From Closterium sp. NIES-65 (Eukaryota > Streptophyta > Zygnematophyceae > Desmidiales > Closteriaceae), in the NCBI GenBank assembly GCA_948144175.1, contig CANXME010002192.1:1612001-1676000 (forward strand): a DNA stretch of 64,000 nucleotides, in the 5' to 3' direction. Within the stretch, counting starts at the first letter, position 1. Each line of letters opens with the position of its first letter. Positions 17,650-57,554 of the stretch are shown piece after piece. The notes under the pieces were generated by a model, which was given only the letters and a program-made list of their open reading frames with translations, searched no databases and had not been told where the DNA came from. Made by a program: the position numbers and the translations under genes.

Positions 17650-20600
17650 TCAACACGATTCTACAGCAGCGTCAGCATCGCGTTCTTTCACAGCGAAACT
17701 GCTCCTGTCACAAGCACCATGCGAAGCAGAAGAAGCACTGCCGTGGTGCTGATATGGCAGGCGCAGCAGTTGAGGCACGTGGTATGACGCATGGGAGAGC
17801 CTGTGGGCCACAGGAGGACTCGGCATGAATGCTGCTCCTGCCTCTGCTCCTGCCTCGGCTCCTGCCTCTGCTCCTACCCTTCTCCTGTCCCCTAACCCTG
17901 GACCCACCACATCCCCTGCTTTATCTGTATTGTCTGCTGTCTCTCCTTCACCCTCGTTATAAGCTCCCTCGATGACAGCAGGAAAATCATCCTTGTGCGT
18001 GTTGCTAAGAGTGCGGCTGCGAACAAGGATATCCGTACCATCTGATAGGCTGATCTCTTCTTCAAGAAAGTCAAGGCTCTGGTAGGTAGCAGTGCCCTCC
18101 GAATCATCAGCACAGGGAAACTCGGAGGTTTCACACTTGCTAGCAGATGTTGAGTCAGCACCCACGGATGCAATAGCACCCTCAGCAGCATTAGCACCCT
18201 CAGCATCCTCAGCAGCACTCTCAGCAGCGTTACCTGTATCCATGTCGAAAGAAGCACTGGCAGCAGGGACTTCGAAAGATACAGTAGCCACAGCTGCACC
18301 AGCTCCACTGTTACTCTGCTCACCCTGCTTCTGACTCACCTGCCCACCTTGCTGCTCCCCCTGTTGCTCCCCCTTTTGCTCCCCCTGTTGCTCCCCCTGT
18401 TGCTCCCCCTGCTGCTCCCCCTGCTCCTCCCCCTGCTCCTCCCCCTGTTGCACCCTCTGATCCAACCCCACAAGTGGCGCCCTCCAAATAATGCCTCCTA
18501 CGAGCGAGCCAGCTTCAGCGGCTCCCTCAACTGATTCACCAGCTGCACTGACTGCCACTGACAGCACAGCAACACTGGGAGACCTCTCACCGTCCACGGC
18601 GAAGCAAGCGAACCGATTGAACACGCCCTCAGTCATGTTTTGAACAAGCCCTTGCAAAGAAGAGCCAGCACTGCCGCCCCCACTGCTGCTGCTCCACCTG
18701 CTGCTGCACTGCGCCCGCCACATCTGTGGCTTCAACTCCGCCCACGAGTCACACTGAAGCGAGGCGACTTGTAACGAGGAGGCTTGTAATGAGGACGGGT
18801 CGGGGTAATCAACGAGGAGATTGATGGCGGAGGGTTTTTGCGCAGGGCCGATAACACGGATGTCGTAATTCACCACCACATGGCCGTCCCTGAAGGAAAG
18901 TAGATCAAGAAGCAAGGGAGAACAAAGAAACGGTATCTCAGGCACCTCAACGATGTCAAATACCGTGACAATCCCTTAGGCGCCTCAGACATGTCGTGAT
19001 TCAGCACCACGTGACCAGCCCTGAAGAAGACAAGAGGAACAAAGGGAACCAAAAAATGCTAAACAGGGTGCTGCTTGGACTCGTCTACGAAAAGTTGCTC
19101 CTAAGAATATGAAAAAAGCGCGCGAAGGAGGAGAACTAGTGGCAAGGAGCTGCACCTGTAAGGAGCTGCACCTGCAAAAGCTGCTGAGCTCAAAAGTTTC
19201 GGGGTAATCCTACTGAATCCACACTACTTCCCCAGTATTTGAACAAGACCTCTTTTACGTTGTCGTCTCAAGCAAGAAACAACAATGCCGCGAGCGAATT
19301 TTGAGAATTCCCACATATTCAGGTCGTTGTATCTTACTTGAAAGCCCCCAGCATAAACGCCCCTCCGCGCATAGCCCCTGATAGCCCCTCCCCCAACTCC
19401 CCCCTCTCCCCCATCTTCCCCATTCCCCCCTTCAGGCGCACTTCCAGGCGGGGGTCCTGTGGGGGGTAGCGCGGAATGATGATGCCTGTGGTGGGAGGGA
19501 GGAAATGGCCGGGCGAAGGACGAGGTGAGGAGGAGCGGTTGGTTAGGAGGGATGGCAGGGATGGCAGGGATGGCAGGGATGGCACGGATTGGGTTTGTTG
19601 GTGGAGTAGACGAGGGACAACAAGGGGATGGGGTGCGACACAGTATGCGCATACAGTGGGCGCATACAGTGGGCGCATACAGTGGGCGCATACAGTGGGC
19701 GCATACAGTGGGCGCATACAGTGGGCGCATACAGTGGGCGCATACAGTGGGCGCATACAGTGGGCGCATACAGTGGGCGCATACAGTGGGCGCATACAGT
19801 GGGCGCATACAGTGGGCGCATACAGTGGGCGCATACAGTGGGCGCATACAGTGGGCGCATACAGTGGGCGCATGGGGAAAATCGCATTGCCGGCCAAGTG
19901 AGGTGCATGCAGCTCATACTGTGGCTCATTGGATGAACAAAAAAAGGGCGAAGTCGGGGAGGAGGGGGGGTGGGGGGAGAGGGGGGGAAACGAGCTCATC
20001 GTACTGTGGCTGATTTGCAGGGTGATTTCGAGAGTTCTCAAAAACACCCTGAAACAACGAGCTGCGCCGTACTGTGGCTGATTTGGTGAACCAAAATAAT
20101 GGGAGAGTGGGGAGGAGGGGGGGAGTTGGGGGAGGGGGGGGAAGTTGGGGGAGGGGGGGGAGAGCTGGTACATGACAGTACACACGGGTTCTCCGTAGCG
20201 CTCCCATTTTGATCACCATGCCCCTCATCCGCCATTCTTACAGTCATGTCCTCCCCTCTCCCGATTCTATCATACCCCTCATCCCCACTGACCACCACCA
20301 CAGCAGCACGCACGCACGCACGCCATACACAGTCAATAGAAGGGATAGAGGGATAGAGCTCACCACCACTTCCACTCCCCACACAATAAGAGGGATAGAG
20401 CTCGTACCGTGGCTGTACTCGCGGCTTCTCTGTAGCGCTCCCAACAAATCATCGTGCCCCTCCTCCCCGCCTTCCACCACAGCAGCAGCGCTCACGCCAT
20501 ACCCTGCCGCTGCATCACTCCCCTCCCCCACCGCTGCACTATCCTCCCCACTCCCTCCCCCCTCCCCCACCGCAGTTAGCATGTCTTCCAGTGCCCTTCC

Positions 20601-23485
20601 CTGCCGCGCATCCACCCCTCTCATCCTCCTCTCCCCTGCCGCCTCCCACACGGATGGTGTTGTTGCCACCCACTGGCACTCAGCCGTTCCCCCGCATAGG
20701 ACCAATGGCGGCGCTCCACGTGGCAGCGAGAGGAGGAGGTTGCTTGGAGGGGAGTCGGCGCCAGCGACGGCGGCACCGAAGCGGATGGTGTAGGCCGGGG
20801 CCGTGCCTCGCGATATGGCCCTGCGGTATGTTGGGGAAGAAAAGCGAGAAAGGGGGGAAGGAGGGGAGGGAACAGCGGAGGGTAGGGGAGTGAGCGGAAG
20901 TGTTGGCGGCACCGACGCGGATGGTGTAGGCCGGGGCCGTGCCTCGCGATATGGACCTGGGGTATCCAAGCAGGAGAAAGGGGAGTTTGGGAGGAGGAGA
21001 GGGGAAGGCGGAACGGAGGGGAAGAGGTTGGTGGGAGGGGAGTGGGCGTCAACGGCGTCACTGAAGCGGATGGTGTAGGCTGGGGCCGTGCCTCGCGATA
21101 TGGCCTTGCGGTGTTCGGGAACAGATAATAGGGGGGGAGAAGAGGGGAGGGGGGAGCGGAGGAGAGGAGGGGGGGAAGGAGGGGAAGAGGTTACTGGAAG
21201 GGTCGTGAGCGCCAGCGACGGCGGCACCGAAGCGGATGGTGTAGGCCGGGGCCGTGCCTCGCGATATGGCCCTGCGGTGTTCGAATTAGAGAACGGGGTT
21301 GTGGGGGGGGAGGAGATGGGAGGAAAAGCGGAGGGGAGGGAAGTGGGCGGCAGTGGTGGCAGCACAAAAACTGATGGTGTAGGCTGGGGCCGGGCGTCGC
21401 AATTTGGACCTTTGGTGTCCGGGAAGAGAAGGGGCGTGGGGGAGAGGAGGGGAGCCGGGAGGGGAGGGGAGCAGAGAGGGAGAGGAAGGGAGACGGGAAG
21501 TAGGGCACTGGGGAAGTGGAGGGGAGGGGGGGAACGAGGGTAGAGGGGAGAGAAAGGGAGAGGGGGATGAGGGTAAGGAGTATTGAGAGAGGAAAGAAAG
21601 CAGCTGGAGGATTTAGCTCTCGCGAGAGCTCTCATGAGTCATTGGGAGGCGGTTGATGCAAGCAATAAATTTCGCGGAAGGAAAAAAATGGTGGAGGGAG
21701 TAAGAACCATGTTACGCAAAGGGAGGGAAGGGAGGGAAGGGAGGGAAGGGAGGGAAGGGAGGAAGGAGAAGGTAAAGCCGTGCAATAAAAACACTACGAG
21801 ATGCGGCATGCCAGTTAAGCAGAGTGTCCTTTACCTTGAGACGGATATGCTTATAGTGCCTCTCATTCCACGGGCGCTCAGCAACTGGGCGTCGAAGTGA
21901 GCTGCAAGGGGAGCATCGTGGGGGAGGCGCGGAGCGAGGAGAGATGGGAGAGGGGGGGAGAAAAGAGAACGGAGCGTGGGAGAAAGGGAAGAAAGGAGAA
22001 CACAAAATGATTTTAGTGCCTCTCACTCCACGGGCGCTCAGAAGCCAGGCAGCGTAATGAGCTGCAAGGAGCCCCAGTGGGGCGCGGGGGAGCGAGCGAG
22101 GAGCGTGGAAGAGGGGGATGAATGGAGAATGGGGAAGTACGAGAGCGAATAACCAAAAGAGTAAGGGGAAAGGGAAAAGGAAGGAGCGAGGGAGAGTCGG
22201 GGCAAGGGAGCGTCGGGGTACGAGAGTGTGAAGCAAGGGAGTGTGGGGAAAGGAAAAGATGGAGAGGAGGCGGGAAAGAGGAGAAGTAGACAAAGAGGAA
22301 GGTTGAAGAGAAGAGTGAGAAGTGTGGAAGAGGCAGAAGGATCCTACTGCAGATGAAAGCAGCACGAGAAGGTGCGGTCTTGCTGCAAAAGAGACAAGAG
22401 ACACACGAGAAGCAACAGAAACAGAGGAAACAGCAGACAACAGAAACAGAGGAAACAGCAGATAACAGAAACAGAGGAAACAGCAGACAACAGAAACAGA
22501 GGAAACAGCAGACAATAGAAACAGAGGAAACAGCAGACAACAGAAACAGAGGAAACAGCAGACAACAGAAACAGAGGAAACAGCAGACAACAGAAACAGA
22601 GGAAACAGCAGACAACAGAAACGGAGGAAACAGCAGACAACAGAAACAGAGGAAACTGCAGACAACAGAAACAGAGGAAACAGCAGACAACAGAAACAGA
22701 GGAAACAGCAGACAACAGAAACAGAGGAAACAGCAGACAACAGAAACAGAGGAAACAGCAGACGACAGAAACAGAGGAAACAGCAGACAACAGAAACAGA
22801 GGAAACAGCAGACAACAGAAACAGAGGAAACAGCAGACAACAGAAACAGAGGAAACAGCAGACAACAGAAACAGAGGAAACAGCAGACAACAGAAACAGA
22901 GGAAACAGCAGACAACAGAAACAGAGGAAACAGCAGACAACAGAAACAGAGGAAACAGCAGACGACAGAAACAGAGGAAACAGCAGACAACAGAAACAGA
23001 GGAAACAGCAGACAACAGAAACAGAGGAAACAGCAGACAACAGAAACAGAGGAAACAGCAGACAACAGAAACAGAGGAAACAGCAGACAACAGAAACAGA
23101 GGAAACAGCAGACAACAGAAACAGAGGAAACAGCAGACAACAGAAACAGAGGAAACAGCAGACAACAGAAACAGAGGAAACAGCAGACAACAGAAACAGA
23201 GGAAACAGCAGACAACAGAAACAGAGGAAACAGCAGACAACAGAAACAGAGGAAACAGCAGACAACAGAAACAGAGGAAACAGCAGACAACAGAAACAGA
23301 GGAAACAGCAGACAACAGAAACAGAGGAAACAGCAGACAACAGAAACAGAGGAAACAGCAGACAACAGAAACAGAGGAAACAGCAGACACAAGAGATTCC
23401 AGCGGTGCGTGGCCTCACCTTCCCCCGTGCTGCTGGCGAGCGCGAGTGACGGCAGCACAAAGGCGAGAAGCGCTGCTGCACGCAC
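17650..23485 (-). CDS. Gene X: unrecognised, probably secreted protein, five exons
   Basis: Five minus-strand exons whose splice phases all fit: exon 1 ends at 23419 (start not fixed; no in-frame ATG close upstream), then 21835-21901, 20408-20820, 19338-19485 and 17650-18892. Each intron uses GT-AG. Exon 1 codes a hydrophobic signal-like run (AAALLAFVLPSLALASS). The middle holds AYTIRFGAAVAGAD and LPRGAPPLVLCGGTAECQW. The last exon begins KDGHVVVNYDIRVIG, carries a Gln/Gly/Glu repeat (EQQGEQQGE, about 18345-18465) and an Ala/Glu repeat (EAGAEAGAE), and ends AVESC. I recognise no family. Copies of exon edges lie beside exons 2, 3 and 5. A cell-surface or extracellular role is inference from the signal-like start only. 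Confidence 0.6.
18975..19030 (-). repeat. Ghost copy of the start of gene X exon 5
   Basis: The minus strand reads a branch/acceptor-like TCTTCTTCAG and then GGCTGGTCACGTGGTGCTGA, a diverged copy of the true exon 5 start at about 18850-18910. The copy stops at a degenerate palindrome (TGAGGCGCCTAAG, 18975-18988). Confidence 0.7.
19647..19873. repeat. 13-bp minisatellite, about 17 copies
   Basis: Near-perfect tandem units GCATACAGTGGGC in an intron of gene X. Because 13 is not a multiple of three and the unit has no stop in any frame, several frames on both strands stay open and give spurious ORFs (SGRIQWAHTVGAY repeats and the reverse). Confidence 0.95.
19900..20205 (-). repeat. Ghost copies of the end of gene X exon 3
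   Basis: Three minus-strand stretches around 19900-19925, 19990-20012 and 20060-20085 share AATCAGCCACAGTA or a close variant. A further copy at 20160-20205 (GGGAGCGCTACGGAGAAC) repeats the exon 3 end, including its GTAC donor. A near-palindrome (20025-20044) sits between two of them. Confidence 0.6.
20900..21430 (-). repeat. Four extra tandem copies of the 5' end of gene X exon 3
   Basis: Units of about 145 bp repeat the acceptor and first 50-60 bases of exon 3 (minus strand CATATCGCGAGGCACGGCCC). Copies lie near 20905-20960, 21050-21110, 21205-21275 and 21360-21415, upstream of the true exon start at 20820. Each keeps an AG at the acceptor position, so alternative acceptors are possible. 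The copy at 21360-21415 is the most diverged. Confidence 0.85.
21720..21768. repeat. GGGAGGGAAG short tandem repeat
   Basis: Five units of 8-10 bp (GGGAAGGGAG) immediately after the exon 2 donor region of gene X. Confidence 0.85.
22010..22080 (-). repeat. Ghost copy of gene X exon 2
   Basis: The minus strand from about 22075 to 22015 repeats exon 2 (TTCTGAGCGCCCGTGGAGTGA, compared with 21835-21901) and loses similarity before the donor. The true exon 2 keeps the phase needed to join exons 1 and 3. Confidence 0.75.
22413..23387. repeat. 25-bp minisatellite, about 39 copies
   Basis: Near-identical units of 25 bp (CAGAAACAGAGGAAACAGCA plus GACAA) fill intron 1 of gene X. Scattered single-base variants (GATAA, GACGA, ACGGAGG) are present. 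Both strands stay open in several frames, giving long but meaningless Cys/Phe/Leu or Gln/Thr/Glu ORFs. Confidence 0.95.
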
Positions 23486-23489
23486 GAGC

Positions 23490-24900
23490 GACGGCAGGTG
23501 AGAAAGAGGGGTGGCGGGAGGGAGAGACGAAGACAGGGCAGGCAGGCGGGAAGCAAGGCAGTCAGGAAACGGGCAGGGAAGGAAACAAGGCAGTCAGGAA
23601 ACGGGCAGGGAGGGAAGTAAGGCAGTCAGGGGAACGAGAGAAGAGAGGGAGGCAGAGAGGGGTGCAGCGACGGGAGAGAAAGGATTACCCGACTGGAGAG
23701 AGAACACGCGCACGAAAACAGCACCAGCGAGGGGGGCTAGTGGTACGTTGAAATTTCGGGGATTACCTACGGCAGTGATAGGCGCGGCTCGGGATCTCGA
23801 GGAGCGTTGACCATCGCGTTGACTTTCACGGGAATCACTCATCGTGCGTGCCTCAAAACACCCACGAGGTACTATCGGAGGTCACAACAGCAACTCAACA
23901 GCGGTAGTAGCGCGGCGCGGCAAGTCGACTCCCTCGAACAAATTACTACTGCGAGGTCTCTTCGAATGAAACCTCAACTCAAGTTGATCACATAAGAAGA
24001 GCGACGGTCACAAGTAGTACCTCTAAACTGTGTGACTCCTCTTACGCCCGTCAAGTTGAAACCTCTGAGCTGAAAGTCAGCCGGGTGCTCTTTTGAGGCG
24101 CCTAAAAAATCTGCGGCGGCGCGTGCGTTCCTCTACTGAATGAAATCCCGCCAGAATCTCAAATGTCGCTGTCTGGAAGTGGAAATAAGCGACAATCGAG
24201 AATGCTCGCAAGGGGTGTACATTCTAGTAATACGTTGCAGGTTCAGTCGAGCTACACGGTACCAGCAGCTTACTTGCGACGAGCATGCGAGCTCCACAGC
24301 GAAGGTCGCATGTCGCCGTCGCCACCGTGAGGTCGCATGGCGTCGCATTCTGTCGCAGGAATCCAGAGATGGATTTGCTAGCTCACGGAGCATTGTGACT
24401 TGTGCCCGTCCACTGGGAAGGTGAGGGCCGCTCGTCGCACTATGCATTGCACAAGGCGCATACGTGTTCGCAAAATTAGGTTAAAGTATGGTATCACGGA
24501 AAACGCCTCCCCAAGCAGCGGTGAGGTCGCTGCGCGCGGCGACCCACCGTTCCAGCTGCACACGGCGGGAATTCTCGAGACGACCCGTAACGCAAAGCGC
24601 GCCGGAAATGGTACTCCGAACCGCACTTAGAGGAAGCAGTGGCGTTACTAGTTACTGGTGCTGTAAGTCTAGTACATCTGCAACGCTTCGCCAGCATGTT
24701 TCTTGCCTCACGCAAGGCTGTCGCGCCGCGAGGTATGCTGTCGCGACACGCAATTCCAATAAGATCCACAATCCTACCCTCAATACCCAATATGCGGCCG
24801 CTAGTCCCGTTTGTGAGACGGAAAATTCCACGTAATAGAGTCAGTACTGTAGCTGTGCGCGTGCTGTTGTGCGAATACTGTGCCGTCATTCACGGATGGT
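23490..24900. other. Stretch with no recognised gene
   Basis: Contains purine-rich GGGCAGGGAAGGAAAC-type repeats (23560-23640), one palindrome (24091-24108) and only short unconvincing ORFs on both strands. It may include the 5' end of gene X, which I could not place. Confidence 0.45.
24091..24108. repeat. Palindrome, core GCGC
   Basis: TTTTGAG GCGC CTAAAAA, one mismatched pair. No flanking duplication noticed. Confidence 0.85.
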
Positions 24901-24924
24901 TACATAACTGCCGCTATAGCATCG

Positions 24925-25085: not shown

Positions 25086-25235
25086 CACAGGCTTTTGGGA
25101 TATGAATCTATGCTTGACAGCCATAGCCTCGCTGACAGCCATAGGCGCGCGTCGCTTTCCAGCCTAGCCAGCGATCGCACAACCTCTGCCGCACGAGGCG
25201 GGTTGTGTCAGAACTTGTGTCGCAATGGTGAGTGG

Positions 25236-25889
25236 CGAGATTTGCTCCAAACCCTTGTTTGGGGATTCGTTGCTGCACACGTGGCTACCGTTTGCTCGAG
25301 TGGTTCTCATATTCAGTGATAATTGCTCGAGTGGCCTCGCCTGTGGATTCTCAACGTCTTTTTTTTAGAATGAACATTACCCTTCAGGGGTATCTATTCT
25401 CGAAACTTCTGTATTGGTTATTGCGCGATCTTTTATATCCGAAATTTATGTTCGTGACCCTATATGACCGCCCCTGATTGGACGCTCATATAATCGACCA
25501 ATCCTGCGCGGCCATTAATGGTCGCGCGCATCATATTTTAATGCCCGATCATATATTTCCGCAGTTATAAACTGCAATGCCCTTAATGACCACGCATGAT
25601 TGGTCAATTATATGCGCGGTGCCTTTTTTTGAATTGCGCGTCCAATCAGGCGCGGTCATATAGGGTCACGAACATAGATTTTGGATACTGAAGATCGCGC
25701 AGTAACCAGTACAGAAGTTTCGGGGATAGAAACCCGTTTAGGGTAATGTGAAGGGTTAAAAAAAGCCAATGGGAATCCCCTGGCAAGGCCACTCGAGCAA
25801 TTATCACTGAATTTGAGAACCACGCGAGCAAACGGTGGCCACGTGGGCAACGCTGAATCTTCAAACAAGGGTTTGGAGCAATTCTCTCG
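25236..25889. mobile_element. Fold-back/MITE-like DNA element with about 230-bp inverted repeats
   Basis: The left arm (about 25236-25480) reappears reverse-complemented at about 25645-25889. Both arms begin GCTCCAAACCCTTGTTTG at their outer ends and share GTTTGCTCG, ATTCAGTGATAATTGCTCGA, CGAAACTTCTGTA and TTCGTGACCCTATATGACCG. The AT-rich centre (about 25480-25645) holds shorter inverted motifs (ATTGGTC, GCGCG). No transposase. Arm identity looks near 80%, so it is old. I could not fix a target duplication. Confidence 0.85.
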
Positions 25890-26357: not shown

Positions 26358-26384
26358 GGCAAGAATTCTATCCTTGAACCAACT

Positions 26385-35152: not shown

Positions 35153-35194
35153 ACAACTGGATTTTTTTTTTCGAGTCTACATGGGTTAAGTGGA

Positions 35195-48400: not shown

Positions 48401-51400
48401 GGTGATGATGGGGGATGATGATGATGGGGGATGGTGATGATGGGGGATGGTAATGATGGAGAGTGGTGATGATGGGGGATGGTGATGATGGGGGGTGGTG
48501 ATGATGGGGGGTGGTGATGATAGGGAATGGTGATGATGGGGGATGGTGATGATGGGGGATGGTAATGATGGGGGATGATGTCGATGGGGGATGATGACGA
48601 TGGGGGATGATGCTGATGCAACCCAACCAGCTGCACAGTGCAGTCTCTGACGCACCACTCACTCACCAAACACACAACCACACAATCAGAGGCCACACCC
48701 ATGCACCGCCATTCACCAACCACACAATCACTCTCGTTTGAGTGCCACTCACCAAACACACACGTCTCGCGGTTGCCTATGTCAAGAGCGGGAATGAAGG
48801 GAGGATACAGACACGCGCATGTGTAGCCGTACTCTCCTCCCACTGCACACACAGCTCCCCCACAGGGATTCTGCTCTGACATGCACGGCGTGGGTTCTGG
48901 TGTGGGGGGGAAGGGGGGATGGGGTGGGGGAGAGGACTTGTGAGGCGCCTCAAAAGAGCAGGAATGAAGGGAGGATACAGACAAGACACGCGCATGGGTT
49001 GCCGTACTCGCCTCCCACCGCACATGTAGCCCCCCCACAGGGATTCTGCTGCAACAGGCATGGCGTGGGTTCTGGCGTGTGGGGGGAGAGGGAGGGGGGT
49101 CAAGGGAGGGGGGATGGGATGGGGGAGAGGACTTGTGAGGCGCCTCAAAAGCGCGGATACATGCATGCACGTGCATGTGAGTCGCCGTTTTCTGCGTCCT
49201 CACATCACTATACCACCTCCCCCATATTGGAAGGAGGAAGGGAAGGTGGGGATGGTGGGGTGAGGGGTGAGGAGCGCTTCCAGGCACGTGCATGTGAGTC
49301 ACTGTTTTCTGTGTCCTCACAGGTACCACCTCCCCCGTATTGGTTCTGCAGCGACACGCACAGAGAGGGCGCTGGTGACCGGGGAATGGGGAAAGGGGGG
49401 GTGGTGGGTGGTGAGGGGTGAGGAGCGGTTCCAGGCACGTGCATGTGAGTCGCCGTTTTCTGTGTCTTCACATGTGCCGCCCCACATGGACTTGTCTAGA
49501 CAGGTGGGCTGCTTATGTAGTCACCGCCTCCTATGTCCTCACATGTGCCTTCCCCACATGGATTCTGCTGCGATAGGCACATAGAGGATGCTTGAGTGGG
49601 GCGGGAAGGGGAGCGGGAAGGGGAGAGAGAGATGACTTGTGAAGCGCTTTAAAAGAGAAAGTGCGGGCACATGCATGTGTAGCAGCGAGTGCTCAAATCT
49701 GGTTTCTGAGATTCGTTTTTTGATATCTGTTTTTTTAGAATTCTTATAAAACATATTCGAACTGCAAACACGTGCATGTGTAGCAGCGAGTGCTGTAATC
49801 TCATTGCCAATGCACAACGCATGTGTGCAAGTGCATGTGTGCATGTATGCATGTGTGCATGTGTGCACATGTGCATGTGTGCATGTATGCACGTATGCAT
49901 GTGTGCATGTATGGATGTGTGCATGTGTGCACGTGTGCATGTGTACACGTGTGCATGTGTGCATGTGTGCACTGCAGATAAGCAAGGTTCGCTCACTCTT
50001 AACGATGGGGTAGATGGCCGGCACAGAGTGAATGCCACAGATGCCAATGCCTCCCCCAAAGGCCATTTGCATGTAGCCCTGCACGCAGAGCGAGATGAGA
50101 GAGCAATGCGCAGCGAGTAGGGCAGAGAAGGGAAGAGAGGAGGGAAGGCGAGAGGAGGAAAAAGTGATGGAGGAAAGGAGGGAAGAGGGGAGGGAAGATA
50201 GAAGGGGAAGAAGGAAGGGAAGAGGGGAGGGAATAGCGGAGGGAAGAGAGAGGGGACAGGCAAAGGCATGCAAAAAACCACAATCGGTTGCGACCTTGCT
50301 GGTGAGGCGCCTGCATGCATCCCACGTGCATGCATCCCACGTGCATGCATGCATCACACCTGCATGCATCCCACCTGCATGCATGCATCCCACCTGCATG
50401 CCCCAGCCAGCCCCCCAGGGGTTGCGGAGGATCCAGAAGGCGCCCTCAGGCGAGATGCTGCCTGGAATGGATACCGCCGCACTGTGACCCACCACCCCTT
50501 TTGACACGTCTCAACAAAACATGCCGTTTATCGCACCTGCATGCCCCAGGTGGCTCCCCAGGAGTTGCGGAGGATCCAGTAGGCGCCCTCAGCCGTGATG
50601 CTGTAGCCCATCACCAGCACGCTGTGATCCACCACTCCTGCCGCTGCACACCCTGCGTCGTTGTATATGCCCTGGGGTGGAGGGAGAGGGAGCACGGTGG
50701 AGGGAGAGGGAGCACGGTGGAGGGAGAGGGAGCACGGTGGAGGGAGAGAGAAGTGGAGGGGTTGGAAAGGGGAAAGAGGAGGAGAGTGCAATGCATGGTA
50801 CCTCACTCACGCCACCCCATCACCACCACACCGTGATCCAACACTAATGCTGCTGCACACCCTGCGTCGCTGCATCATCACCCCCGCCCGCCACTGTGCA
50901 CCATGGGTCGCTGTATGTGCCCTGGGGTGGAGGGAGAGGTGGAGGGAAAGACATGGAAGGGAGAGGTGGAGGGAGAAGAAAAATGGTGAGTGCCGTGCAG
51001 TGCAATGCAGTGCAGAGCAGTGCAGTGCAGAGCAGTGCTGTGCAGTGCAGTGCAGTGCAGAGCAGTGCAGTGCAGAGCAGTGCCGTGCAGTGTAGTGCAG
51101 TGCAGTGTAGTGCAGTGCAGTGCAATGCCGTGCAGTGCCGTGCAAGCCATGGTAGGTTAACTCTCACCCCTTCGTCACCAGCACGCTGTGATCCACCATC
51201 CCTGTTGCTGCACACCCTGCATCACTATTTATGCCCTGAGGGGGGCGGTTCAATGCGGTACCTCTAACACCGCCCCATCAACAGTAGCTGTGATCCAGCA
51301 GTGATGAGTCTACTAGAAAATAGGCTCATCATGAGAATCGATTTTTATCTGGATTCTAACAAAAAAAAAACAGAAAATAGGCTCGTCGTGAGCGCAGTGC

Positions 51401-54400
51401 AATGTGTGGTACTTCTCACACCAACCCCCCCCCTGTCACCAGCACTCTGCATTCCATCACTGCACACCCTGCATCATCGCTGTACATGTCCTGCATCATC
51501 ATCGCTGTACATGTCCTGCATCATCATCGCTGTACATGTCCTGCATCATCAACGCTGTCTGTACATGCCCTGCATTCATCATCGCTGCATAAAAAAGGTG
51601 TTTCCCTTACATCTGTGTACGTCTGGAAGGAGGGGTAGGAGCCTCGCACGAATGCAATGGTGGGCTGAGCCTGCGACAGGGGAGCGGAGAAGGGAAGAGA
51701 GAAGACGAGATAAGGACTGGGCGGAGGAGGGGAAACAGCAAAGCAAAAGCTACAGCAGACTCTCGCTGACTGAGCAGTACCAAACTATGTGCACAAATCC
51801 AATGCATGCACGCATGTATCCTGCACTGCTGCCCGCCCGCTGCACTGCCACCATCATCGGAACCACTGCAGCAAATCAGCACCCTGTGTGTCTTGTGTAC
51901 AAGCTTACGTTGACAGCCAGGAGAAGACGCAGCCAGGCATAGAAGATGACTGCTTGTGAAAATCCCATGTGGTAACCGGATTGGACTCATAGGCTTACGT
52001 TCACTGCGAGGAGAAGACGCAACCAGCCGTAGAAGATGAGTGCTTGTGAGAATACTGTGTGGTAACGGGATTTGATTTTTAGGCTTACGTTCACTGCGAG
52101 CCGCAGACCCAGCCAGCCATAGAAGGTAACTGCTTGTGAAAATACTGTGTGGTAACGGGTTTTGTTTTTCGGGCTTACATTGACAACGAGGAGCAGACCC
52201 AGCCAGCCGTAGTAGTCCACCTGGTAATACCCCCTGATGCCTATGGTCGTTGCCTTCTGCTCCGCCTGGGGGGAGAAACAGGGCATGGGCACATGGGCAT
52301 GAGCATGGGTGTGTGGGCGCGGGTGCGAGCATGGGTGCGAGGGTGGGTTGTACTCGATCAACCAGACTCTACGACGGCACAAGCGGTGCGACGGCACATG
52401 TGGTGCGACGGCACATGCGGTGCGACGACACATGCGGTGCTACATACAACACATGTTGTACGACCGTGCAACATTCTGTCATCTTCGTCGAAGCATTTCG
52501 GAAAACATTGCCTCAAACAAGGCTTGGACGGGCAAAAGTGCCCCACCCATGAATGGCACTCAACTGCTTTATGATTGACATGGGTGCATGAGCAGGGTGA
52601 CTTTTGAGTCGACTCAAGTCAAAAGTGCCCCACCCATGAATGGCACCCAACTGCTTTATGATTGACATGGGTGCATGAGCAGGGACGCATGGCAGGAGCA
52701 CATGGGCATGTGAGCATGGCACAAAAGCACGTGACAAAACTTGAGCAAGGGTACAAGAGCGTGTGACTATCCACGGGCAAACATCGTCCCCGACTGTTCG
52801 ACCTCCTCAAAGCGTACCTTCCACAGTTGTACCCCCCCCAGGCGTACCTCCCCCAGGCGTACCTCCCCCATCCCAGGCGTACCTCCCCCAGGCGTACCTC
52901 CCCCAGCCGTACCTCCCCCAGGCGTACCTCCCCCAGCCGTACCTCCCCCAGCCGTACCTTGGCGTGTTTGCATTTGCCGTTCTTCTGCTTGTACGCGTAC
53001 CCAGCGTGGGTCGCAAGCCCCCCCCACTCCTGTGTGGCGGCCACCATGTAGTCCAGTGCTGTCGTCGGCCACGCGCCCGCAGCACAGCTGCTGTTCCTGC
53101 CTTTCCTGCTGCAGTCCAGTACCTAAAGGGGTGGGGGTTGAGTGGGGGGAGAAAGAAGAGAAGAGCGCGGAGGCAATGAGATGCTGTGAGTGAGTGAGGC
53201 TGCCCCCACTGTACTGTAGTGTGGCATGGCATGGCATCCACCGTGTAGTCCAGCTCCTGAGGAGCAACATTACATTGTGGCGGAGGGAACAGCTGGGTGG
53301 CAAGCCCCCCCCACTGCGGAGATAAATGCTGCAACGGGAGCTAGACTGCGGGCTAGACACGTGTGCTCGTGTGATCTCTGCGTTCGTTAGTCCTTGGTGG
53401 TTTTCCTTGTGCACACACTACTTGCTAGTTCACGGGGAAAGTTGGCAAGAGTTTCACTAGGAAAAGTTCAGAACAATAATACAATGAAGTTGGCATAGCA
53501 AGACTACATCAGAGCAAGCATTCAGGTCGGCCAACTGCCAGCGCAGCGCGATCGACCGCGTTCTAGCACGACTTGGTCGACCGTGCTCCAGCAAGGCAAG
53601 GTCGATGGTGTGCCAACGTCGCAGGTTGACGGCGTGCCAGCGTTGCTCACGCAGGACAGCAGTGCATCCGCTTCGCAGGTGCACGCAAATGATTGGCGTG
53701 CAGTATCTCGTCACCTGCACAGTGCACAACACCACGTCAACCTCGAGCTGACGACTGCCTCTGATCGGCCACGTCGACCTCGGGATACCACCACCGAGGT
53801 CGGGCTCGCCAACTTCGCCTGGGCGACCGTCGCACTCCTCCGCAGCACTTCGTCACCCAAGTAACCTGGTCGACCGGGCAACCACGTCGACCAGCAGCTC
53901 CGGTACGTGCCCGTCGACCTCCCAAGTCGACGACCACCTCCATCGGTCGACCTCCTCCAGGTCGACGTCCCTTCTGGTCGACCAGCTCCGCGTCGACCAG
54001 CACAGTCGTCGGCCGACCACCCACGTCGACCACACGAAGTTGGCGTCACGAAGTTGACGCCCCGCTACTCGACGCCCAGCTGCTCGGCGTCCTGAGTCGA
54101 CGTCGACGTCGGCCCCTCCTTTGTCGACCACCAGGTCCAGTCGACCACCCACAGGTCGACCAGCGGTCCATCAGCCGACCACCGAAGTCGGCTTCCCCAA
54201 GTTGACGTCATCCGCAGGTCGACTCCCAAGTCGACCTCCCCAAAGTCGGCGCCACCCTGAGGTCGGCGCCCGTGCAGTGGTCCTCGTGCAGGTCGACCTC
54301 CTCGTCAACCAACTCGCCCACTGCTGTAGGTCGGCTGTTCCCCTCACACTCGACCACGATGTCGGCTCCGCCCAAGCGAGGACGGGGCCAACACACAACT

Positions 54401-57062
54401 CCTGTTGACACTCCCCTGCCGCGTTCACGCTTGGGTCCCCAGCCCACACGGCAGTACAGCTCCGAGAATAGCCCGTCGGCGACCGTGATAGCCGACTTGT
54501 TGTCCACTCGCAGGACAGTCGGCTTCCCGGCGTCCAGCTGCCGGAATTCGGCGAGAAGGAAGCGAAGGCGGCGTCCCTCCTTGCCAGCTTCAGTGGCCGC
54601 CACGTACTCCGACTCGGTCGACGACAACGTCGCGCACTTGATGCGCTGGCTCGACCAGGAGACTGCAGCCCCTCCGTAGATGAACACGTAGCCGCCCATG
54701 CTCGTCCTGTTCTGCTTGTCACCGGCGTCGTCGGCGTCCACGTAGCCGACCAGCTCCAGCGACTCAGGTCCACCGCCAAATTCCAGGGCGGTGTCACGCG
54801 TGTTGGCGAGGTAGGCGAGGCAGCGGTCGATCTCGCGTCAGTGCTGGTCGCTCCTCACCGTGAGGCCGTTCCCCTGCTTGCTGCAGGCGAAGGCGATGTC
54901 TGGCCTTGTCGTCGTCGCCGCGAGCTGCAGCGAGCCGACCTTCTGCCGGTACTCCTCCTCTTGCCGTTCTTGCGCCTCCTCGTCATTGAAGGTGAGCTCG
55001 GCGTAGGCGCCGACCGAGACCGGCGTCTTCGGGGTGCGCCCTGTCTGCACCTCGTCGATGAAGCGCCTACGCAGCTTGTTGGGCTGAGAAATAGCTCCAC
55101 TGCGCTCACTGCTGTGATGGCCCATGATGAATCTGGGTTGGGGAGTGAAAAGTGGAGGGGAGGGAGGGGGGAGGAAGGGGCGGAGCGGAGGGAAGGGGGA
55201 AGTGGACGGGGAGGGGGAAAAGAGGAGAAGGGCTGAGAGAAGGTTCTTTTGTGAGTAACAACACTGAGTAACGCTGGGGGGAATCCATGGAGGGCGTCGA
55301 GTGAGCCACTAACGCGTACGCCATTTCTACCGCGCTCACTGCTGTGATGGCCCATGATGACCCTGGGGTGGGGAGTGAGAGGGGGAGGGGGAGGGGAAGG
55401 GAAGAGGGAGGGGAGCGGGAGGTGGATGGATGGGGAGGGGAGGGGAAAAGAGGAGAAGGGCTGAGATATAGTTCCTCATTGCGTCTGCCCGCTCGCTCCC
55501 TCGCGCATGCCAGCGCGTGTCCGTTCCGAGGCATCGCGCACGCATTCCACATGGATTCGCCTTTCGAGAGCTCTCGAAAAGCCACTATCGCGTACGCCAT
55601 TTCCACCGCGCTCACAGCACACCGGTTACCGCACCAGCCATGCAAGAGGGCATGGCACCTACTGCTGCACGTCGTTATCGCCGTCGTCCACGTCGGCCAA
55701 GCGCACCTGGCCGATTGCGACGGAGCACCGGTTGAAGGCCGGATAGTGCAGCGCCTTCGTCAGGAAGTCGGCCGGCTGCTCAGCGGTTGGGATGTACTGC
55801 AGCGAGAACTTCCTGCGCTTCACCATGTGCTGCAGCCAGGCCTGTCGCCGCTCCATGTGCTTGAGGTTGCCTGTCAGCCCCATGCCCTCGGCGACCGTGA
55901 TAGCCGACTTGTTCTCCACTCGCAGGACAGTCGGCTTCCCGGCGTCCAGCTGCCGGAATTCGGCGAGAAGGAAGCAAAGGCGGCGTCCCTCCTTGCCAGC
56001 TTCAGTGGCCGCCACGTACTCCGACTCGGTCGACGACAACGTCGCGCACTTGATGCGCTGGCTCGACCAGGAGACTGCAGCCCCTCCGTAGACGAACACG
56101 TAGCCGCCCGTGCTCGTCCTGTTCTGCTTGTCACCGGCGTCGTCACCGCCATTTGCCTTCGGAGCGCAGCGCGAAAAAGGGCTCGAGGCGAGGGTCCTCG
56201 ACCCAGTTGCGACCTTTCGTGAAAAGGTCGGTTGCGACCTCCCCCGTCCTCGCGTCATAAAGGGTGCTGATAAACTGGAAGAGCCGGAACGCGTACTTGG
56301 GAGCCACGGCCACCGCGGGATTTGCGCTACACCGATACCTCTGGGCTGGTCGTACCGCGGGGGAGGGGGAGGAAGGGTAACGGGAGGGAGAGGGGAGGAA
56401 GACGGGTGAACTTCCGAGGCGCCTCAATGGTCGGGATTTGCGCTGTATCGATACCTCTGGGCTGGTACGGGGCCACACGGGGAGGGAGCGAGAGGAAGGG
56501 ACTTGGCGGTTGCTGCTTTTATGAAACATGATGAGAAGGGCGATTGGACTTTCTAATCGACCCAGAGGTGCATGGGAAGGATGGAGGACGGGGAGGAAAG
56601 GGAAGGGAAGGAAAGGGGGGAGGGAGTTGGAGGTTGCTGCGATATCATGATGGGAAGGGCGATTGGCCTCTCTTATCGACTCAGAGGTCGCAACGAAAGG
56701 ATGGAGGACGGGGAGGAAGGGGAGGAAGGGGGCCGGGGAGCCTGAGTGTTGCCTGGGATGCGCGAGTCGCGATCGGACAAGGGAAGAAAACGGAAGGCAA
56801 GGACGGTGGAAGGACGGGCCGACGCATCAACACTGACCTGCGACAGCGACGTTGCCATTCGCGAGCATGCTCAGCGAGAAGCACGGCGACACAAGTTGTG
56901 AGTCGACTCAAAAGTCAACTCGACGCAAGACTGACCTGCGACGGCGACGCCGCCACTCGCGAGCAGCGCAGCGAGAAGCACGGCAATCAGCGCCGCGTAG
57001 CACGCCGCCTGTCGGGACGCGAAGTCCCCGCGGCGCGAGGCGGCGCGGGGGATTGTCTGCAT
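36456..57062 (-). CDS. Large secreted papain-family / EGF-like / LysM protein, interrupted by retroelements
   Basis: Minus-strand exons I can support, from the 5' end: 56936-57062 (signal peptide), an exon near 56145-56320 (ANPAVAVAPKYAFRLF...), 55290-55362 (SSWAITAVSAVE), 52958-53122, 52179-52265, 51611-51670, 50537-50671, 49997-50078, EGF exons 48753-48896 and 48032-48169, then LysM exons 39380-39427, 38574-38792, 37732-37950 and 36456-36878. Phases join within the papain run and are 1-1 in the EGF exons; the joint between the EGF and LysM blocks is not fixed. Reading this as one gene is inference from strand, order and domain logic; two genes (protease/EGF and LysM) remain possible. LTR element A, a TRIM and fragments C and D lie inside it. 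Confidence 0.6.
36719..36782. repeat. GGA trinucleotide repeat inside the last LysM exon
   Basis: About 20 GGA/GGAG units. On the coding (minus) strand they encode the polyserine linker before the C-terminal LysM. Length variation would change the linker without shifting frame. Confidence 0.9.
36879..37280 (-). repeat. Three tandem ghosts of the last LysM exon start
   Basis: Units of about 120 bp repeat the acceptor CTACCACAG|GTGTGTGTGG and following exon bases, centred near 37010, 37130 and 37260. The true exon starts at 36878. Confidence 0.8.
37310..37440. repeat. 18-bp tandem repeat, about 7 copies
   Basis: Units CTACACAACCCTCACCTG in the intron before the last LysM exon. Confidence 0.95.
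37555..37650 (-). repeat. 28-bp array that repeats a splice-donor-like site
   Basis: Minus strand units CCGGGG|GTGAGTCTCCATA..., three copies, start at the end of a ghost LysM exon (FNPGVRCDAIPHS). Each restores a GTGAGT donor. Confidence 0.85.
37955..38310 (-). repeat. Two partial copies of the 37.7-37.95 kb LysM exon
   Basis: About 37955-38115 codes LCVVKGSGTQDVPKLPMC and SGDTCGSIIKDNSLNQ. About 38220-38300 codes VSDGIIADHALNNT. Both lack the exon's second half. Confidence 0.75.
38288..38672 (-). repeat. 131-bp tandem repeat carrying the LysM exon end and donor, three copies
   Basis: Units share CACTGCACCGCATCTCACCT and CGGGTTGAGAGCCAGAAACT. The copy at about 38540-38670 belongs to the complete exon 38574-38792. 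The two downstream copies repeat its second half (SLTVDEFLALNPGIKCDS) with the GTGAG donor. Confidence 0.9.
38735..38965 (-). repeat. Tandem duplication of the LysM exon 5' part with a palindrome at the junction
   Basis: About 90 bp (GCGCCACGCTCACTGGTGTG to GGGATGGGGC) occurs at about 38741-38829 and again at about 38873-38960. Between them sits the palindrome 38831-38862. Confidence 0.9.
38831..38862. repeat. 32-bp palindrome, core AATT
   Basis: AAATCACTTTGGAG AATT CTCAAAAGTGATTT with one mismatched pair; at the junction of the 90-bp duplication 38741-38960. Confidence 0.95.
39095..39310 (-). repeat. Two ghosts of the short LysM exon
   Basis: Minus strand VYQLYGPTEKAFL-type coding near 39245-39300 and a weaker copy near 39095-39165 repeat the GTCTACCAG acceptor and exon, each ending in a GTGAGC donor. 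Confidence 0.65.
39984..41023 (+). repeat. A 5' LTR
   Basis: Starts TGTCAACGGGAGTGTTG and ends CTATCTCCGTA. The centre (about 40140-40400) is an internal array of GGACGCC/GACCTGGGCGTC units. Confidence 0.9.
41110..41685 (+). pseudogene. A gag-like N-terminal region
   Basis: Open plus-strand stretch with a coiled start (LEAQLEDARRRHEAQECKAV), a Gly/Ser-rich middle and a copia gag-like end (FDRPDILTWKV-type, read here as FGRPDILTWKVAIEPQLEMA). Cut by fragment B at about 41686. Confidence 0.6.
41686..44726 (-). mobile_element. B: copia fragment nested in A (3' LTR side, RNase H, RT, integrase)
   Basis: Minus-strand copia of another family. A probable 3' LTR lies at about 41690-41940 (minus strand start TGTTAGAATTAG, next to a purine tract CCTAGGGGGTG). 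Then come RNase H (GYSDSSYADDQSDRRSSQG, CEAELYAGTMAAQEA, 42245-42706), RT (MKDLGKLTNYLGMEITRDR near 42800, and SGVNIVKGKWVFLVKQ near 43380), a Pro/Ser-rich spacer (43620-44130), and integrase (LHSDGGGEFRNNTL, DSPQQNGIAESRNRTL, 44140-44720). Gag, protease and the 5' LTR are absent. Broken; truncated against A at about 44726. Confidence 0.83.
44727..46076 (+). pseudogene. A reverse transcriptase and RNase H
   Basis: Copia pol: WKGPAVKAAMEEEIHSLINM, RLVVKGFTQVYDADYDETFA, LVYVDNLLAASSSTEML, then RNase H with TLSSTESGYVAATEARKE, LRVDNKSAITVAEGMGL and the end QPADFLTKALHYPAF. Fossil; part of A, upstream boundary set by B. Confidence 0.85.
46205..47248 (+). repeat. A 3' LTR
   Basis: Starts TGTCAACGAGAGTGTTG, ends TTATGTCCGCA, and is followed at once by GCGCC, the second target duplication copy. 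Confidence 0.9.
47254..47334 (-). repeat. EGF-exon tail remnants between A and the TRIM
   Basis: CTTACTCGGGACGCATGTGG (47307-47326) is the end and donor of an EGF exon copy on the minus strand. The TRIM starts eight bases further on. Confidence 0.6.
47335..47472 (+). repeat. TRIM left LTR
   Basis: 138 bp, TG...CA, ends in the imperfect terminal inverted repeat TGTCAGA/TCTGACA. Confidence 0.92.
47542..47679 (+). repeat. TRIM right LTR
   Basis: 138 bp partner of 47335-47472; followed by CGCCG. Confidence 0.92.
47680..49700 (-). CDS. EGF-like block of the large gene, real and ghost modules
   Basis: Exon 48032-48169 codes a complete six-cysteine module: ACSMQDSNPCAVGTC, NNEGDYFCICPWGF, ALTCVP. 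Exon 48753-48896 codes PCMSEQNPCGGAVCAVGGEY, CACLYPPFIP and RETCVF. Both are phase 1-1 exons, the usual class for shuffled EGF modules, and follow the phase-1 end of the papain exon at 49997. Partial copies lie at 47680-47850 (CICPWGFKQGRR), 48955-49080 (CLLQQNPCGGATCAVGGEYG), 49140-49240, 49300-49375 and 49440-49600 (CLSQQNPCGEGTCEDIGGGD). How many copies are spliced is unknown. Confidence 0.7.
47890..48010. repeat. Tandem duplication of an intronic 55-bp unit
   Basis: GGTTCATAGTGGAGT-type units at about 47890 and 47978, after the palindrome remnant at 47861-47876. Confidence 0.65.
48360..48625. repeat. Imperfect GATGGTGATGATGGGG minisatellite
   Basis: About 15-18-bp units of GATGATGGGGGATGGT over 265 bp between two EGF exons. 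It creates Ile/Thr/His-rich ORFs on the minus strand that are not genes. Confidence 0.9.
48936..48956. repeat. Palindrome, core GCGC
   Basis: ACTTGTGAG GCGC CTCAAAAG; at the junction between two EGF exon copies. A near-identical site lies at 49131-49151. Confidence 0.93.
49810..49975. repeat. GTGCATGT microsatellite
   Basis: Short alternating (GCATGTGT) units with CACGTGTG variants, in the intron after the papain domain's last exon. Confidence 0.9.
49997..55362 (-). CDS. Papain-family (C1A) domain of the large gene
   Basis: Exons on the minus strand: 55290-55362 (SSWAITAVSAVEMAYALV), 52958-53122 (VLDCSRKGRNSSCAAG, GYAYKQKNGKCKHAK), 52179-52265 (ATTIGIRGYYQVDYYGW), 51611-51670 (AQPTIAFVRGSYPSFQTYTD), 50537-50671 (VVDHSVLVMGY with catalytic His, YWILRNSWGATWG with catalytic Asn), 49997-50078 (GYMQMAFGGG, CGIHSVPAIYPI). 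The last five exons join in phase. The position of the catalytic cysteine in GSCWAF reads Ser (TCA, 55355-55357), in both complete copies of that exon. By family knowledge such proteins may be non-proteolytic or serine-type; that is inference. Confidence 0.75.
50315..50400 (-). repeat. Reiterated donor after a ghost catalytic-Asn exon
   Basis: The minus strand ...GGGGCATGCAG|GTGGGATGCATGCATGCAG|GTGGGATG repeats the exon-end/donor four to five times. The preceding ghost exon (50385-50490) codes FWILRNPWGAGWGMQ. Confidence 0.8.
50385..50500 (-). repeat. Ghost of the catalytic-Asn half of the papain exon
   Basis: Codes ISPEGAFWILRNPWGAGWGMQ, a diverged copy of 50537-50600. A near-palindrome (50499-50517) separates it from the true exon. 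Confidence 0.8.
50672..50755. repeat. 20-bp repeat in the polypyrimidine tract of the His/Asn exon
   Basis: GTGGAGGGAGAGGGAGCACG four times. On the minus strand it is a pyrimidine-rich tract next to the CCCCAG acceptor. Confidence 0.88.
50815..51245 (-). repeat. Ghosts of the His exon start, plus GCAGT microsatellite
   Basis: Minus strand copies near 50825-50925 (GTYSDPWCTVAGGG) and 51170-51240 (SDAGCAATGMVDHSVLV) repeat the first half of exon 50537-50671. Between them 51000-51140 is a (GCAGT/GCAGA)n tract. Confidence 0.78.
51905..52180 (-). repeat. Exon end plus donor repeated four times (about 85-bp unit)
   Basis: The end of exon 52179-52265 (GGCTGGGTCTGC...GTCAAT|GTAAGCCC) recurs at about 52085-52110, 51995-52025 and 51905-51935, each with a GTAAGCC donor and the following ATCCCGTTACCACA-type intron sequence. 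Confidence 0.85.
52535..52690. repeat. 62-bp tandem duplication with palindrome at the junction
   Basis: GTGCCCCACCCATGAATGGC to GGTGCATGAGCAGGG occurs at 52537-52598 and 52624-52684. The stretch 52599-52623 holds the palindrome ACTTTTGAG TCGA CTCAA. Confidence 0.9.
52600..52617. repeat. Palindrome, core TCGA
   Basis: ACTTTTGAG TCGA CTCAA, then GTCAAAAGT; at the junction of a 62-bp tandem duplication. Confidence 0.93.
52830..52957 (-). repeat. 15-bp array repeating the donor of papain exon 52958-53122
   Basis: On the minus strand the exon end GCCAAG|GTACGG is followed by eight to nine units GTACGGCTGGGGGAG or GTACGCCTGGGGGAG, each a GAG|GTACG donor-like site. Confidence 0.92.
53170..53314 (-). 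repeat. Ghost of papain exon 52958-53122
   Basis: Contains copies of GGGGGGGCTTGCCACC and GAGCTGGACTACACGGTGGA, matching the ALDYMVAA part of the exon in scrambled order. Element C begins directly after, at 53315. Confidence 0.6.
53315..54410 (-). repeat. C 3' LTR
   Basis: 1096 bp, TG...CA on the minus strand. Terminal about 60 and 130 bases resemble the A LTR; the GTCGAC-rich centre does not. Confidence 0.82.
53315..55085 (-). mobile_element. C: truncated copia element related to A
   Basis: 3' LTR 53315-54410 (minus strand TGTCAACAGGAGTTG ... TTATCTCCGCA). Its ends match the LTR of A, but its centre is an array of GTCGACC-rich units. Upstream lies RNase H (ADDAGDKQNRTSMGGYVFIY, TLSSTESEYVAATEAGKE, 54440-54741) and a little of the connection region (LRRRFIDEVQTGRTPKTPVSV). 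It ends against host exon sequence at about 55085. Broken; no 5' LTR. Confidence 0.85.
55085..55618 (-). repeat. Three copies of the papain active-site exon
   Basis: Minus strand copies near 55090-55135, 55286-55362 and 55580-55615 share CAGCAGTGAGCGC and flanking TCATCATGGGCC. The third starts inside the exon at the edge of fragment D, and the palindrome 55562-55579 lies at its downstream end. The first two both read SSWAITAVSAVE. Confidence 0.85.
55562..55579. repeat. Perfect palindrome, core AGCT
   Basis: TTTCGAG AGCT CTCGAAA; abuts the third copy of the papain active-site exon. Confidence 0.93.
55618..56150 (-). mobile_element. D: internal copia fragment (RNase H) of the A/C family
   Basis: Minus strand: GGDDAGDKQNRTSTGGYVF, LSSTESEYVAATEAGKEG, LRVENKSAITVAEGMGL, MERRQAWLQHMVKRRKF, QPADFLTKALHYPAFNRC, then 40 bases of the non-coding tail. 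No LTR. Both edges abut host exon sequence. Fossil fragment. Confidence 0.85.
56145..56480 (-). CDS. N-terminal exon of the large gene and its ghost
   Basis: About 56155-56320 on the minus strand codes VAPKYAFRLFQFISTLYDAR and TDLFTKGRNWVEDPRLEPFF. It lies between signal peptide and papain exons, so it may be part of the propeptide, but I do not recognise the inhibitor-I29 motif. Its start (QRYRCSANP) recurs at about 56430-56475 (QRYRYSANP), next to a GAGGCGCCTC core. Confidence 0.5.
56540..56720. repeat. Tandem duplication, about 125-bp unit
   Basis: GAAGGGCGATTGG...TATCGACTCAGAGGT with GGATGGAGGACGGGGAGGA occurs at about 56535-56600 and 56653-56725. Confidence 0.82.
56830..56935 (-). repeat. 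Ghost of the signal-peptide exon end
   Basis: GTGCTTCTCGCTGAGCATGC to GTCGCAGGTCAGTGTTGATG repeats the last 50 bases of the exon and its donor. The palindrome 56896-56913 lies between exon and ghost. Confidence 0.88.
56896..56913. repeat. Palindrome, core TCGA
   Basis: TTGTGAG TCGA CTCAAAA; between the signal-peptide exon and its ghost. Confidence 0.93.
56936..57062 (-). CDS. Signal-peptide exon of the large gene
   Basis: ATG at 57062-57060 (MQTIPRAASRRGDFASRQ), then the hydrophobic run AACYAALIAVLLAALLASGG and VAVA before the donor GCAG|GTCAGT (phase 1). A typical N-terminal secretory signal, although the first 18 residues are long and basic. The assignment to the papain gene rests on strand and position. 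Confidence 0.6.
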
Positions 57063-57554
57063 CGCGTTTGATTTGAGATTTGCAGTGCTCTTGAGCCGCC
57101 GCCGCTGCGTGCGCGCAACAAACCGCCGTGGATGCCGCGCTGCGGTTATGCGCACAGAATGTTCACTACTAGTAATCTCGGCGCACTCGATACTAGTCGG
57201 CGCTGCTGCCTCGGAGGTGAATTTTGGACCACCTCAATAGTCCCGGACGCAGAAGATTGTGACAATCGACTCGAAAACACACCTGGACGCGGCAAATCTG
57301 AGGCGCTTCGAAATCTGAGCCGCCTGGGTGGGGTATCTCGTGACGAGCCTAGAAATATGGGACCGGCGCTTGGATGCAATCTCGTGCTTTAGCCATCATC
57401 TTTACCTCCGAGTTACCCACCCTCCGAGTCCCTCTCACACACTCCCCATTGTTACCCACCCTCTCCTCCCCCTCCCCTTCCCCCTGCCCCTCCCCCCGCC
57501 CCTACCCCTACCCGACTGCTCCTAGCAGTGTCATTTCATCCATGTGATGGGTGT

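Follow-up and report, generated by a model that had tools for sequence, protein, structure and literature searches.

We analysed a stretch of 64,000 nucleotides from Closterium sp. NIES-65 (GenBank assembly GCA_948144175.1, contig CANXME010002192.1, positions 1,612,001 to 1,676,000 of the forward strand; hereafter the window), in which copies of a short palindrome, TTTTGAG-NNNN-CTCAAAA, lie scattered between direct repeats. We propose, with a probability of about 0.58, that these palindromes form a family of mobile elements, very short and dispersed through the nuclear genome, which spread by hairpin-mediated copy-and-paste and duplicate their targets. Near-identical loci differ in whether the palindrome is present; it occurs in many copies and its targets are doubled, the two arms of a copy are complementary, and units of target and palindrome expand into arrays. 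The palindrome, about 18-60 bp long, is evidently mobile in this genome and doubles a target of 13-150 bp.

The motif is far more frequent than expected by chance. Exact matches to TTTTGAG-NNNN-CTCAAAA number 30,327 in the 874 Mb searched, a total inflated by near-identical contigs and tandem arrays, against 4 for the reversed pattern, which is likewise palindromic and has the same composition. The genome size of this strain has been given as 876 Mb (PMC10407611, available text). We infer that independent insertions are fewer than sites, between thousands and about ten thousand. Four of the 256 possible tetramer cores, each of them self-complementary (TCGA, 13,080 sites; GCGC, 5,851; ACGT, 5,047; AATT, 2,601), make up 26,579 of the exact matches. 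Among the listed chance matches to the pattern on viral contigs, by comparison, the core was self-complementary in 2 of 120 and abutting repeats were present in none of the 116 testable. The window holds 15 matches at no more than 2 mismatches, and five first-order Markov sequences held 0, 0, 0, 2 and 0. An earlier interpretation of the window from its letters only (the sequence-only reading) had listed sites of this form, with self-complementary cores, as perfect or slightly decayed; all of them are present, and some are weak, those at 18975, 29654, 49635 and 56412 being decayed. Rfam models gave no match in the window at gathering score.

Most of the palindromes separate two copies of a target. 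We scored abutting repeats with a constrained alignment that must end at the palindrome's left edge and start at its right edge, setting the cut-off at a score of 14; a hit lying within 150 bp of its predecessor was dropped before counting, as in the other repeat test and in the arm-matching test below. At this cut-off, 75 of 96 collapsed sites had an abutting direct repeat, compared with 56 of 500 random positions drawn from the window and 19 sampled stretches. The control background is high because the genome carries many small tandem duplications: the window and the 19 stretches contain 116 close repeat pairs without a palindrome, overlapping pairs counted. With an unconstrained aligner, repeats were found at 47 of 89 sites versus 186 of 3,000 controls. 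A scan of 254 kb gave abutting repeats at 12 of 17 palindromes of the motif and at 3 of 23 palindromes of other sequence. Sites with flanks shorter than 120 bp (constrained test) or 230 bp (unconstrained test) were left out. The controls and the palindrome scans also exclude the array locus L015, and the site lists exclude its copies past position 3300. Most sites outside the window and contig C1894 were picked as exact motif matches, so the sample leans to young copies. A chance origin is ruled out by the Markov sequences, the reversed palindromic control, the random positions, the other palindromes and the viral-contig matches taken together.

The duplicated targets vary widely in length, from 18 to 152 bp with a median of 54 at the 47 sites (of 89) that passed the unconstrained aligner; the shortest, at site 31361, is 13-14 bp. 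The 44 best-defined targets among the 96 sites, kept by alignment quality, show no clear consensus or sequence preference at their ends; their last base is T in 48%, as would result if the target end overlapped the insert's run of T. In the window, 6 of the 10 sites with at most one mismatch have an abutting repeat by the strict test (the exceptions are 24091, 36143, 47761 and 49133). The sites and their repeats are as follows.

29868-29902: inserted 35-bp palindrome, AATT core, centre TTTTGAGAATTCTCAAAA, arms TGGTATGAC/GTCATACC; a perfect 38 bp counting flank bases
29827-29867, plus strand: left copy of its duplicated target, 41 bp, 39/41 identical to 29903-29943
29903-29943, plus strand: right copy of that target, 41 bp
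31360-31379: perfect 20-bp palindrome, GCGC core, between 13-bp direct repeats 31348-31360 and 31380-31392
38830-38868: insert holding a 32-bp palindrome (38831-38862), AATT core, between repeats 38737-38829 and 38869-38960
48937-48956: palindrome, GCGC core, between repeats at about 48788-48925 and 48958-49100
49132-49151: palindrome, GCGC core; own abutting repeat not found (score 4)
52598-52619: insert TGACTTTTGAGTCGACTCAAGT, TCGA core, between repeats 52533-52597 and 52620-52684 (98%)
56894-56915: palindrome, TCGA core, between repeats 56828-56887 and 56926-56984
50499-50516: decayed palindrome, ACGT core, between repeats 50387-50460 and 50530-50603
47758-47796: ACGT-core copy whose single long arm ends in TTCACGTG; abutting repeat not found at the strict threshold
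29654-29671: decayed AATT-core site between exon-end copies 29597-29624 and 29704-29731
20026-20043: quasi-palindrome, AGTT core, with direct repeats on either side
24091-24108: GCGC-core palindrome with one mismatch; abutting repeat not found
36139-36164: GCGC-core palindrome; abutting repeat not found
47860-47877: decayed AATT-core site
49732-49749: decayed AATT-core site, repeats 49668-49700 and 49769-49801
55562-55579: AGCT-core palindrome TTTCGAGAGCTCTCGAAA; no abutting repeat at threshold 16
18975-18988: strongly decayed GCGC site, with 34-bp direct repeats nearby (18862-18895 and 18993-19026)
56412-56429: decayed GCGC site, repeats 56316-56377 and 56432-56500

Direct repeats named in the sequence-only reading were recovered at 31348/31380 (13 bp), 29827/29903 (41 bp), 38737/38869 (about 93 bp) and 52533/52620 (63-65 bp). 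A copia-like fragment of the window is flanked by the sites at 55562 and 56412. Separately, random-sample stretches with long copia-like open frames (for example L002, L012 and L016-L020) were free of the motif, an observation to which no statistical test was applied.

The presence of individual palindromes differs between near-identical copies of a locus within this one genome. We compared five of seven prepared young sites with such copies and found an empty counterpart for two, L042 and L056, in both cases reading the empty copy directly. The occupied state of L042 (contig C14) has a 55-bp target twice, with a 40-bp palindrome between the two copies; on C975 the target is single, which leaves this copy shorter than the occupied one by exactly 55 + 40 bp. 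The empty copy of L056 (C21) lies on C1907 (98%). At L055 and L031 the palindrome was present in every copy found. Near-identical contigs are a feature of this assembly, with C6, C347 and C1658, for instance, sharing a 3.5-kb stretch at 99%.

The window itself has a colinear counterpart, C531:849501-894900, from which we sampled 20 stretches of 400 bp. Sixteen of them are 98.5-100% identical to the window; two others match at 90.75% and 95%, with differing lengths, and two fall in a region without colinear match. The match stops at window position 36261, against copia-like sequence. None of the window sites that could be compared is empty in C531, and the insert at 38830-38868 is also found in the C531 copy (99.2%). 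The C531 copy of the palindrome at 29868-29902 (site 29877) has lost 23 bp covering the left arm, and that of the 29654 site has gained, at 29643, an additional 43-bp tandem copy of an exon end together with its splice site. The locus L202, a diverged paralogue (about 73% identical) of the 38838 site, has no site of 3 or fewer mismatches at that place. The duplicated exon piece aligns there with a local score of 15 out of 37, the second-best alignment reaching 13, which is too weak to count the piece as single, and we draw no polarity from this locus.

Two readings that do without mobility, a library or assembly artefact and a binding palindrome held in place by selection, accord with a sequence this short and constant, and the near-identical contigs mean that the assembly may be partly redundant. 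Yet copies range from perfect to decayed and come in several arm variants, most of them lie within their own target duplication, and filled loci exist alongside empty ones; a binding site, moreover, leaves the duplications unexplained. We give these readings practically no weight.

The palindrome multiplies as a unit, because one variant of it is present in 34 exact copies and those examined have abutting duplications. This variant, GAAAGAAGGAGTG-TTTTGAGACGTCTCAAAA-CACTCCTTCTTTC, is a perfect 44-bp palindrome, and the L042 insert belongs to it. From the matches of the empty-site search we took 14 stretches, 13 with the exact 44-mer and one, L238, with a near-exact copy. All 13 exact copies had an abutting repeat scoring at least 14, and 12 of them at least 25, compared with 51 and 34 of 500 random positions under the same settings; the 13 include two pairs of near-identical loci (L230/L231 and L242/L243), and L238, at 12.5, scored under threshold. 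Insert ends vary by a few bases between loci of this variant, and the target duplications of its exact copies are 14-55 bp long. At L242, and at the near-identical L243, the 44-bp copy was seen by eye to be nested in a second palindrome of this family, its duplicated target being 17 bp long; the repeat reported there by the program is the longer, outer one.

These copies bear on what had been taken, at 29867 and 38831, for locus-specific flanks extending the palindrome: with one variant exact at 34 places, such flanks are better read as variant-specific arms. A scheme in which locus-specific arms are self-copied at each site is weakened by the same 34 copies. The suggestion in the sequence-only reading of a hairpin-type insertion that duplicates its target is supported by them, as it is by the two empty and occupied pairs among the five sites tested. 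Its alternative suggestion, a scar left by a duplication process, survives as a question of mechanism. In one such scheme, an unprocessed flap formed during replication or repair would fold back, extend itself and be ligated, and a preferred template would give the constant centre. 'Alternative duplications', in which two units flank an internal sequence much as here, are described from flap processing without FEN1 in the available text of PMC13202174; duplications tens of bases long without a target consensus fit this scheme, as does the wealth of small tandem duplications without a palindrome (the 116 pairs and the control background of 56/500). However, the internal sequence in FEN1-deficient cells is there ascribed to local flap self-extension, whereas the Closterium insert multiplies and is constant across the genome, down to exact 44-bp copies, and does not repeat the flank at its locus. 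Palindromes unrelated to the motif, too, seldom lie in duplications (3/23), and we consider a flap scar improbable.

Copies of the palindrome are roughly 18-60 bp long and share a constant centre (TTTTGAG-NNNN-CTCAAAA, symmetric about the middle of NNNN), with arms that are specific to the variant. Within a copy the arms correspond more closely than a shared consensus accounts for: the first base outside TTTTGAG matches its partner in 82 of 104 cases versus 47 expected with partners shuffled, the second in 64 versus 37, and the excess falls to chance by the seventh base. Among 35 rows of the ACGT type (sites within a locus uncollapsed, L015 and L008 wholly left out), 9 had arms whose positions 9-24 were at least 70% alike, a level reached by 3% of between-copy comparisons. 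The arms look as if inherited by variant and truncated. At L234 (positions 1-221, contig C926), an AATT-core and an ACGT-core palindrome adjoin inside a single target duplication, as if they had inserted jointly or one had inserted into the edge of the other.

This anatomy sets the palindromes apart from miniature inverted-repeat transposable elements (MITEs), which have target duplications of fixed length and conserved ends. Short interspersed nuclear elements (SINEs) have a tail and a promoter. A DNA transposon reduced to its two end repeats and moved by a transposase would share the palindromic form, the many copies and the target duplications. But the length of the duplication is not fixed (18-152 bp), and a conserved centre with variable, ragged outer ends is the opposite of terminal inverted repeats; longer copies with the same ends were not seen in the loci examined, although no genome-wide search for them was made. 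We therefore hold a MITE-like origin to be very improbable.

The unit of target and palindrome can also expand into tandem arrays. At L080, the copy on contig C1893 has exactly one more 47-bp unit, composed of a 28-bp target and a 19-bp palindrome, as read directly from the sequence. At positions 3068-10000 of L015 (C1894:1223068-1230000) lies a satellite of at least 122 units with 57-bp spacing and 119 exact copies of the motif, each unit consisting of a target stretch and an ACGT-core palindrome.

We propose that the palindromes spread by copy-and-paste through a hairpin intermediate, of single-stranded DNA or RNA, with the machinery probably provided in trans. Each strand of the target would be nicked once, the two nicks lying tens of bases from each other, and the hairpin would be copied or ligated into the site so opened; fill-in of the staggered ends would then double the target. 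Pairing of the hairpin's arms would keep them complementary.

Several points weigh against this proposal. The mechanism is deduced from sequence, with no machinery, intermediate or insertion event observed. No abutting repeat reached the cut-off at 21 of the 96 sites, and no empty copy was found for 3 of the 5 sites tested. The direction of insertion at the empty and filled pairs, unproven at L042 and L056, rests on simplicity, because exact recombination between the two target copies could also produce an empty site. Some ACGT copies are one-armed; by eye, most of the ACGT rows outside the 9 with similar arms show a single long arm or neither. Between the two sides of a copy, arm length shows no significant correlation (rho 0.23, p 0.15, for the 42 of 96 sites kept by alignment quality); rho is 0.46 once nine copies of the 44-bp variant, which share one fixed length, are added. 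Matching of the arms could alternatively reflect selection acting on a folded RNA, or template switching that corrected the palindromes afterwards. The trimming of a shared open hairpin end, which we considered as a source of equal arm lengths, is unsupported, since these lengths are not significantly correlated.

The main rival is a minimal retroposon, in which a small hairpin RNA would be reverse transcribed into staggered nicks by target priming, through the endonuclease and reverse transcriptase of an element like the long interspersed nuclear elements (LINEs), acting in trans. Target copies of variable length (a trait shared with SINEs), ragged ends, one-armed copies that look truncated and the high copy number of one variant all accord with it, and RVT_1 reverse transcriptase domains are abundant (150 scored among 15,064 candidates, all above cut-off). 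By their length, however, the listed domains look mostly to be of the long-terminal-repeat type, and a regular-expression search for reverse transcriptase in open frames of at least 250 aa, covering 19 of the 20 sampled stretches, returned copia-like matches only and no LINE. Both insert ends are ragged, an A-rich or simple-repeat 3' tail was not seen by eye, and no longer member of the family appeared among the listed inserts. The target duplications also exceed the 10-12 bp of the RTE-clade LINE SR3 (PMC1291365, available text). A LINE-driven hairpin retroposon is thus unlikely, if the most serious of the rivals, and we continue to favour the hairpin-mediated copy-and-paste element.

The sequence-only reading had seen the palindrome as a mark of tandem exon duplication, and this part of it we do not uphold. 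The window contains an IBR3-like acyl-CoA dehydrogenase gene at about 28900-35400, whose protein, assembled by us from its exons, has its ten best matches in Closterium strains; protein alignment places the sites 29654, 29877 and 31361 in its introns, and the duplicated piece at 29654 takes in an exon end. Beside real exons, the gene also holds larger copies of parts of exons, among them 29180-29398, 32724-32843 and 33980-34072, and no site of 3 or fewer mismatches lies between the paired copies in these three cases. Because such larger copies lack a palindrome between the pairs, the palindrome is not a general mark of exon duplication here, and the 44 well-defined targets showed no clear preference. 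The link of the palindromes to exons is incidental, and small tandem duplications are also common here by another route. Elsewhere in the window are two minisatellites without a palindrome, one of 13-bp units (ACAGTGGGCGCAT) at 19640-19873 and one of 21-bp units (ACAGAGGAAACAGCAGACAAC) at 22420-23390, and an inverted-repeat element at 25237-25886 that resembles foldback or MITE-type elements. Its arms, at 25237-25488 and 25635-25886, enclose a spacer of 146 nt and show 85% complementarity along 252 nt.

To our knowledge, no known element is at once nuclear, present at tens of thousands of sites and flanked by target duplications this long. Bacterial repetitive extragenic palindromic (REP) sequences and the REP doublets called REPINs are palindromes of tens of bases spread in trans by RAYT proteins, whose substrate is thought to be a single-strand hairpin. 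They resemble the Closterium palindromes in being short and palindromic, but are bacterial, and we know of no long target duplications for them. Introners are likewise short elements that multiply, in genes, and duplicate their targets. MITEs and SINEs are also short, non-autonomous and dispersed, with target duplications; unlike them, the Closterium palindrome is several times shorter, and their hallmarks are missing or unseen in it.

The nearest known kind are the mobile palindromes of organelle genomes, the mitochondrial genome in particular. The GC clusters of yeast mitochondria (GC42) are described in the available text of PMC4478555 as dispersed palindromes of about 40 bp that are present or absent between strains, with the mechanism left open; the four commonest have 5 to 25 identical copies in the reference genome, and their flanks are AG or ACT only. 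The Closterium palindromes share with them the dispersal, the presence or absence at homologous sites (seen for 2 of the 5 tested) and flanks resembling target-site duplications. Unlike the mitochondrial clusters, they are nuclear, lying in a 2.9-Mb contig with a plant-type, intron-bearing gene in the window, and they have tens of thousands of sites, targets of 13-150 bp, and a constant centre with variable arms. The repetitive hairpin elements of sponge mitochondria and the double-hairpin elements of Allomyces are also small, hairpin-forming and inferred to be mobile (PMC2800124, PMC7218506, available text). Both differ in being organellar, and the Allomyces elements are reported, in the available text of PMC2800124, without flanking duplications. 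Judged by titles and abstract openings, the open-licence papers returned by our searches describe no such element from a nuclear genome.

There is a real chance that the Closterium palindrome is a class of its own. Tentatively, and at somewhat less than even odds, we suggest a new class of nuclear mobile element: a protein-free palindrome of tens of bases, replicated as a hairpin, which enters at nicks set widely apart, maintains or restores its symmetry while spreading and makes local tandem repeats out of its targets. Such a class would be a source of satellite DNA and of partial exon duplications. If the palindrome is mobile as we propose, it would be the smallest mobile element known to us in a nuclear genome and a very abundant one, so recent that a single assembly contains both filled and empty sites. 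Each insertion would double tens to more than 100 bases of target, which would explain a share of the genome's small duplications and reveal a satellite array adding one unit at a time. The mobile palindromes known from organelles, themselves unexplained, would then be linked to the nucleus, and with tens of thousands of sites the movement of such palindromes becomes testable.

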